DNA of 64,000 nt from Sulfolobus sp. S-194 (GTDB lineage: Archaea; Thermoproteota; Thermoprotei_A; Sulfolobales; Sulfolobaceae). Each line of letters starts with the position of its first letter. Position 1 is the first letter of the stretch. Below are positions 56,710 through 58,273 of this stretch, one piece after another. The notes beneath the pieces are model-generated. The model saw only the letters and a program-made list of their open reading frames with translations, was not told where the DNA came from and did no database searches. A program made the translations under genes and the position numbers. The DNA is taken from NCBI RefSeq assembly GCF_012222305.1, contig NZ_CP035730.1, positions 1,178,001 through 1,242,000 on the forward strand, in the 5' to 3' direction.

Positions 56710-56803
56710 TTTTAAGCTAATATAATTTTAAGAACATATAAATACAGTAACCCATACAAGTTTGGCTATATAAATTTAAATAAATTATGCTTGCTCGTGA
56801 TAC

Positions 56804-56867
56804 AAAGGCCAGGTTAAAATTAAGATGTATAATATTTTTAGATTATAGCTTAGATGACCTGGCCTTT
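56804..56867 (-). promoter_or_regulatory. Perfect 11-bp inverted repeat, 42 bp apart
   Basis: AAAGGCCAGGT (56804-56814) and ACCTGGCCTTT (56857-56867) are perfect complements, 95-158 bases upstream of the solute-binding-like gene. These GC-rich arms stand out in AT-rich DNA. A TATA-like TATATAAATTTAAATAA lies just outside at about 56768-56784. They could be regulator sites or the stem of an RNA. Confidence 0.45.
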
Positions 56868-56917
56868 AAAGTCTAAGAAAGCATAAATACAATAGGTCAA
56901 TTTTAACGAGTGTGTTG

Positions 56918-57045
56918 ATAGTATGTCGTCATTTGTATATAAATTCAATAACTAAACTGATCTCTAGTGCGAGAAGAAACTAAGATAAAGTTATTGTACG
57001 CCTTGTTTAAATATAGAAATTTAAGTAGCACAATAACAACACTAT
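56918..57045 (-). mobile_element. Family A MITE
   Basis: Ends ATAGTATGTCGTCATT and AATAACAACACTAT; interior AAGATAAAGTTATTGTACGC. Slightly diverged from the perfect copies. It directly abuts the left end of the IS110-like element. Confidence 0.8.
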
Positions 57046-57057
57046 GGCTGGCTGTGA

Positions 57058-57129
57058 AGCCCCTAGAACGATCTAACAAGAGGGGACAAAACCCCGAGTA
57101 GGAGTTTGTAACCAAATACTCTAGGAGCT
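57058..57129 (+). ncRNA. Structured left end of the IS110-like element (bridge-RNA candidate)
   Basis: Outer stem AGCCCCTAGA (57058-57067) with TCTAGGAGCT (57120-57129), one mismatch; inner hairpin GGGG (57082-57085), loop ACAAAA, CCCC (57092-57095). It lies just ahead of the transposase. IS110-family elements are known to encode a bridge RNA in the non-coding end next to the recombinase gene, so this is where it is expected. Expression is not shown. Confidence 0.5.
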
Positions 57130-57133
57130 GAAT

Positions 57134-58273
57134 ATGGTTAATATTATACTAAAGAAAACAAGATATTATGAGAGAAAAAATATCTTGAGAAACGAGAAAT
57201 ATTCAACCATGGAATTAAACGTTACCAACAAGGCCTTTACAATTGACACAAAACAAACTAACAGTAACAAAGGGAGAACTAGTAGTAAAACAGGGCAAAT
57301 TGACAGTATACATCAAGGAAGTATTCGAGTACAATAATGAGGGAATAGAAGTTCTTGGGAGAATAAGACAACGGGAGTATACTACTTCCACCTACACGAA
57401 AAACTAACGGAAAAGGGCTACAAGGTAACAGAAATACTTGAAGACCGACAAACTTGACGCACAAAGACTAGCACACATGACTGGAGTAATCAAGGGATCA
57501 TACTAACGGGAGAAATAAATAGAACTAACGAGATAAAGCCTAGTAGAGAAAATAACACAAGCGAAGAACGAGATAAAGAAAATACTAGAAAGCACGGTAT
57601 ACAAGATACAACCATTCGATAAGAGGGGGAGACAATTGGTGGAGAAGCTATCTAGAGGAGTTAAGCAAGAAGAGTTGAAGGAGAAGTTAGGGAGAAGTTT
57701 GAATGATGCTGAGAAGCTAGCGTTGAGGCAACTGTTAGAATTGTTGAATTGGAGAGTATACTTAAGGAGGTTGAGGATATGATACTATCCAAGATTCCTC
57801 AACCTATGATTGAGTTATCCAGGATTCCTAGGATTAATTAGTGCTGCAACCATTTACGCTGAGTTCGGTGATGTTTCCCTCTAGTTCTAAGGCTGCTTAT
57901 GCTAGCTTTGCAGAGTGGTGAGAGCGAGTCTCACTCTGGTATGATTAGGGGTAATAAGTATTTGCGTAGGGCTTTTTTCTTGGTTGCTAGGGTTGCTAGG
58001 AAGTCTGAACGTTTTAAGGAGTATTACGATAGGCTTGTCTCCAGGTGGAAGAGTGCTACTAAGGCTACTTGTGCTCTTGGTGGGAAGCTTGCTTGTATTT
58101 GTTATCACGTTATAAAGGATGGTGTTTACAAGTGCATAGCCAAGAAGAGTTTTAGGGTTCCTAAAGCTAAGCAAGTTGATGTCAAGGACTTCGATGTGGG
58201 AGACGCACTGGACTCGTTATCCCCTTAGGTTTGCTAGAGACGTTAGCATGTGGTGCCTATATAGGACACATTC
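57134..58273 (+). pseudogene. IS110-family transposase, frameshifted
   Basis: N-terminal pieces include TGVYYFHLHEKLTEKGYKVT and LDAQRLAHMTGVIKGSY, as in the DEDD domain of IS110 recombinases. The C-terminal Transposase_20 domain is better kept: GLISAATIYAEFGDVS, then SGESESHSGMIRGNKYLRRA with the serine region, then FFLVARVARKSERFKEYYDR. Stops and frameshifts near 57337, 57465, 57840 and 57890 break it. The first half is A-rich, the second G/T-rich. Right edge about 58268 (GCCTATATAGGACACATT), a motif also found at 23586. Not active. Confidence 0.78.

Follow-up and report, generated by a model that had tools for sequence, protein, structure and literature searches.

The window, a 64,000-nucleotide stretch of the Sulfolobus sp. 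S-194 genome, contains the remnant of an IS110-group insertion sequence that abuts a MITE and carries a broken recombinase gene. As the earlier note had described, a nested stem and a GGGG/CCCC hairpin, the letters of which were found in place, lie between the MITE, which ends at 57045/57046, and the recombinase remnant that follows it, and the recombinase frame is indeed broken several times. The start of the gene was placed by homology to intact relatives. Its last open frame (57872–58225) scores 26.8 bits with PF02371 (cut-off 21.3), the only one of the two recombinase domains that the remnant keeps.

Table 1. Features at the junction of the MITE and the IS110-group remnant (window coordinates).
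Feature	Position	Strand	Remarks
MITE, ends GATAGTATGTCGTCATT...AACACTAT	56915..57045	.	abuts the shortened IS110 element
IS110-group insertion sequence remnant	57046..58258	+	lacks the left ~130 bp; last two letters are the core CT, 58257-58258
GGCTGGCTGTG, putative surviving 3' strand of the target-binding-loop stem	57046..57056	+	
Putative donor-binding loop of a bridge RNA	57058..57129	+	fold and stem kept in relatives
5' stem strand, AGCCCCTAGA	57058-57067	+	
Hairpin	57082-57095	+	GGGG 57082-57085, CCCC 57092-57095
Putative right donor guide, GTAGGAG	57098..57104	+	complementary to left-end CTCCTAC of relatives
3' stem strand, TCTAGGAGCT	57120-57129	+	
Broken IS110 recombinase gene	57209..58228	+	three-frame reading; stop 58226-58228
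Non-coding right end, GTTTGCTAGAG..AGCATGTGGTGC, and core CT	58229..58258	+	conserved in relatives

A homology search that included the MITE gave mostly MITE copies and was rerun without it. Blastn comparison with intact relatives then showed homology from 57046 to 58256–58265 in nearly all full-length copies. The start of the homology coincides exactly with the end of the MITE, and the relatives run about 130 bp further left to the terminus CTCCTACGGGG; the stem thus does not mark the left end of the element, where the earlier note had placed it. Intact copies are about 1.49 kb long, with a non-coding left leader of about 290 nt before the ATG and about 30 nt after the stop codon. The recombinase of one of them (L116) matches both PF01548 (67.6 bits) and PF02371 (73.5 bits) above the cut-offs, and an unbroken 385-residue frame is present in 15 of the 16 copies fetched from genome G155. 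The DEDD and Transposase_20 domains of L116, together with the long left and short right non-coding ends, are those of the IS110 group. CT is found at both ends of the copies, and the uninterrupted homologues of two insertion sites (L209 and L210) have a single CT/CCT, with no longer target duplication; at the left junction in the window, the CT core is lost. Leaders of intact copies, such as L136 (upstream of 461 and before the ATG), have two GTATTA(C/T) boxes, each with an A/T-rich stretch behind it, one ahead of the bridge RNA and one ahead of the recombinase start; they are possibly paired promoters. ISC1491 of S. solfataricus would, by its name and length, fit an IS110-family element of about 1.49 kb; a literature search returned nothing on it.

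The MITE belongs to an abundant family with 40 further matches in the window's genome. Flanking repeats of 8–9 bp occur at several of the listed copies; the window copy has no target-site duplication. This suggests a deletion at its right end, and the arrival of the copy probably came with, or was followed by, a deletion or a rearrangement. The window element is dead, its left terminus and target loop having been lost at the MITE junction and its recombinase being broken. Just left of the MITE, an inverted repeat, CAAAGGCCAGGT...ACCTGGCCTTT (56783–56876), is possibly another small element.

The two strands of the window stem pair with a C/A mismatch in one of ten pairs, and relatives have TCTAGGGGCT as the 3' strand. 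On its own, the segment 57058–57129 folds at −20.0 kcal/mol (z −2.38), with 4 of 200 shuffles equally good, and the wider span 57046–57138 is unremarkable (z −1.25, 21 of 200 shuffles equally good). As a single sequence, the window stem is only mildly beyond chance, and the case is carried by conservation.

The leaders of the relatives contain two loops. The first has the layout AAGCC-arm-GGGG...CCCC-arm-GGCT and holds guides of 8 nt, which correspond to the left and right flanks of the copy that carries them. The second, AGCCCCTAGA-...-GGGG...CCCC-GA-GTAGGAG-...-TCTAGGGGCT, is homologous to the window stem. The strand at 57046–57056 is all that the window retains of the stem of the first loop: its partner in relatives, CATAAGCC, lies upstream, and the window has neither this 5' strand nor the target guides.

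The agreement between the arms of the first loop and the DNA flanking each copy was assessed by permutation. The left arm matched its own left flank at a mean of 6.13 of 8 positions over 30 distinct rows, against 4.56 after permutation (0 of 5000 permutations), and at 5.89 against 4.50 with one row per guide (n = 18; 0 of 5000). The right arm was complementary to its own right flank at 3.81 of 6 positions over 26 rows, against 1.81 permuted (0 of 5000), and at 3.94 against 1.92 with one row per guide (n = 18; 0 of 5000). Compared with random CCT flanks, the right arms reached a sum of 71, the null mean being 30.3 and the highest of 20000 draws 55. These values were obtained with corrected anchors for the left ends and loop arms; with earlier, wrong anchors the left test was weak (35 and 1163 of 5000). 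W, L123, L149, L160, L167, L168 and L169, which have no usable left end, loop or flank, had been left out of the test beforehand. Examples of guides are CTACAAGG against CCTTGTAG in G155, CATATAGG against CCTATATG in L136 and, in L122, TAGAAAAC, which is identical to the copy's own left flank. The fit to the own site is poor on one or both sides in L146, L154, L155, L158 and L159.

Two groups of copies have unusual flanks. In one genome, the left flanks of L153, L154 and L156 are much alike, their right flanks differ and so, in part, do their guides, as though the target sites had been recombined. L148, L149 and L151 have 18 bp (ATTAAGAAAAAGACTATA) in common beyond the right core and then diverge, the common segment being either a repeated target or an extended end.

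The donor guide in the second loop is complementary to the copy's own left end over 7–8 nt in 14 of 15 representatives, the exception being L158. Changes on the two sides are linked: GTGGGAG occurs with CTCCCAC in L142, L143 and L145, and GTGGAAG with CTTCCAC in L165. IS621, as described in PMC11208160, has a left donor guide that agrees with the right end beside the core. For such a match to the right-end sequence beside the core, nothing above shuffles was found in 14 of the 15 representatives; L132 alone has a 7-nt right-end match, CATGTGG (44 of 1000 shuffles). A pairing of TCTAACAA in the donor loop with TTGTTAGA in the right end is not claimed here: as scored, its 6-nt part did not exceed chance (217–370 of 1000), and copies that carry a 6-nt deletion have lost the pairing. 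The left donor half may be read differently or by the protein.

The two-loop structure is also reflected in the pattern of base changes. An alignment not fitted to the structure has pairing bases in 91.4% of cells and changes on both sides in 5 of 21 pairs, as many being reached in 1 of 500 shuffles. With 60 matches aligned to the two-loop model, both sides change in 13 of the 21 pairs (0 of 500 shuffles), a count that rests on an alignment fitted to that same model. RNAalifold, run unaided on alignment A1, predicted only a 4-bp hairpin. Comparison of the fold with shuffles gave z −5.76 and −4.12 for two intact copies and −3.44 for the distant L132. At gathering scores, no Rfam family matched the window, and none matched the loci of six relatives up to an E-value of 1, which is neutral for the bridge-RNA reading. 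The test that the earlier note had proposed, in which left ends are compared and examined for covariation and for agreement of the loops with target and donor DNA, was passed except for the left donor guide, which had a match in L132 alone, and the conserved structure among copies, on which the note had made its reading depend, is present.

Among the 197 genomes of the order, 10, counting that of the window, have relatives of the 118-residue C-terminal piece. In the window's genome, the piece matches only itself and no intact copy of the family was found; the earlier note had thought intact relatives possible elsewhere in this genome, and they occur in other Sulfolobaceae genomes instead. The first 214 bases from 57047 have matches in 11 of the 197 genomes, two of which lie outside the family and have short matches only. 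The two-loop model has matches in 12 of 31 Sulfolobaceae genomes and, under stricter filters, in 6 of 398 genomes of a phylum sample, all six in the window's family. The element family was not found among the plasmids and phages searched, nor in viral contigs searched with an exact 18-mer, and a search of genome contigs for related loci returned one distant bacterial locus only. A different IS110 family is represented in the window's genome by L002 and L006, with open frames of 418 and 362 residues, and L136–L139, L145 and L154, from other genomes, are inserted in DNA closely resembling the left end and gene start of that family.

Taken as a guide RNA, the structure at 57058–57129 is very likely the donor-binding loop of a bridge RNA that an IS110-group element of the Sulfolobaceae encodes in its left non-coding region. 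The basis for this is homology, the anatomy of the elements, guides that agree with their own flanks, a donor guide that agrees with the left end, and CT at the junctions. Because the second loop of the relatives is homologous to the window stem and its guide is complementary to their own left end, the window stem would be the donor-binding half; the target half is lost, so it could not work as it stands. The bridge RNA that the earlier note had proposed here thus gains support from guide–target and guide–donor agreement across the relatives, and the window holds the 3' half of it only. In an intact RNA, the arms of the target loop would match the left flank in the same sense and the right flank as reverse complement around the CT core, and the donor-binding loop would follow, its 3' arm pairing with the element's own left end. 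Once transcribed, the RNA would be bound by the recombinase, which would use it to join the CT junction of the circular element to a matching CT site by recombination.

The stems could instead belong to the leader of the transposase mRNA and control translation or transcription, with no guide RNA involved. They do lie 5' of the start codon that homology places at 57209, and GGGG/CCCC hairpins with a strong stem would suit an attenuator, but arms that track the flanking DNA or the left end of their own copy are not expected of a control leader, and the non-autonomous copies described below keep the structure without a gene behind it, which makes this account highly improbable. Hardly credible at all is the idea that the hairpins arose by chance in a decaying insertion-sequence remnant and never had a function. 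It would agree with the wider window sequence folding no better than shuffles and with a copy that is plainly dead, yet the same two-loop structure recurs in relatives across those 12 family genomes, and the intact copies fold far below their shuffles, at the z values given above. For the family this explanation is already refuted, and it holds only in that the window copy no longer functions. We therefore keep to the bridge-RNA reading, by which, as judged by comparison, an RNA of a known kind has lost one half in the window and no longer functions, and the family around it is archaeal.

Ten copies (L144, L156, L166, L209, L210, L211, L216, L217, L221 and L223) consist of the left end, the bridge RNA and the right end in 337–347 bp, with no transposase. 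They occupy nine sites (L221 and L223 being at one) in six genomes and have one internal tail in common, which points to a single origin as probable. L165, L167, L168, L212 and L213, among others, in which no right end was found by pattern, were not counted as solo copies, nor were L219, which is without a left end, and L215, which has recombinase sequence between the bridge RNA and the right end.

Such copies might be inert deletion remnants that form no mobile family. In line with this, L165, L167, L168, L212 and L213 have no recognizable standard tail or right end, and the right arms of the solo copies taken alone agree only weakly with their own sites by permutation (3762 of 20000), many sites beginning with CCTCTT. 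L217 fits its own site poorly. Against this stands the internal tail that the ten copies have in common although they lie at nine different sites in six genomes. The left arms also agree with their own sites (nine distinct rows; 57 of 20000 permutations), as do both arms together (230 of 20000), and the right arms exceed random CCT flanks (0 of 20000). Moreover, the joined flanks of L209 and L210 correspond to uninterrupted homologous sites with a single CT/CCT, that is, to precise empty sites. We consider the remnant explanation unlikely. With both ends kept, no transposase, common ancestry and different sites, the solo copies look like bridge-RNA-only non-autonomous elements. Elements of this derived family of about 340 bp most likely move, or have moved, in trans with their own guides. 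On balance we favour the view that these Sulfolobaceae elements are guide-RNA parasites with a borrowed recombinase and their own evolving target guides, which sometimes land in IS110 recombinase genes; L144 and L211 are within such recombinase sequence or next to it. Guides supplied in trans by elements of this family could also give the autonomous elements new targets.

The window's genome also carries L168, a bridge RNA that is old and decayed and has a tail similar to that of the solo copies. Its surroundings resemble those of L167 in genome G078, so the two are probably a single ancestral insertion.

The inferred RNA resembles that of IS621, as characterized in PMC11208160, in belonging to an IS110-group recombinase, in its position in the left end, in having target and donor loops and in the CT core. 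The left target guide has the sense of the left target, and the right target and right donor guides are complementary to the right target and right donor. Unlike IS621 as presented there, the family is archaeal, has a scaffold without an Rfam match and yielded no clear left donor guide. The ISfinder predictions that supplement that paper may include these elements. The archaeal leaders also show no 5' stem-loop before the target loop. In IS621, a 5' stem-loop precedes that loop. For seekRNAs of IS1111 and IS110 elements, experiments showed that the DEDD transposase is led to its target by an RNA from the non-coding region, which in an IS110-type element lies upstream (PMC11187229); here, a guide RNA from such an upstream region is likewise proposed, by comparison only. 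Among Sulfolobus MITEs, SM3A and SMN1 are small non-autonomous elements that need the transposases of ISC1058 and ISC1733 in trans (PMC3718332). The solo copies are likewise small and non-autonomous, but have IS110-type ends and a guide RNA; SMN1 was rejected as their known form, since by the account in PMC3718332 it depends on ISC1733. In a literature search that reached few subscription papers and preprints, neither archaeal bridge RNAs of this family nor elements made up of a bridge RNA alone were found to be reported.

The family offers a comparative test, in heat-growing archaea, of the RNA-guided recombination known from bacterial IS621, with the natural reprogramming of guides visible copy by copy, and the G155 copies with an unbroken 385-residue frame would lend themselves directly to thermostable biochemistry. 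Should the recombinase-free copies prove mobile, the guide RNA would be separable from the recombinase in nature, like a MITE from its transposase, and the choice of target could evolve apart from the enzyme.
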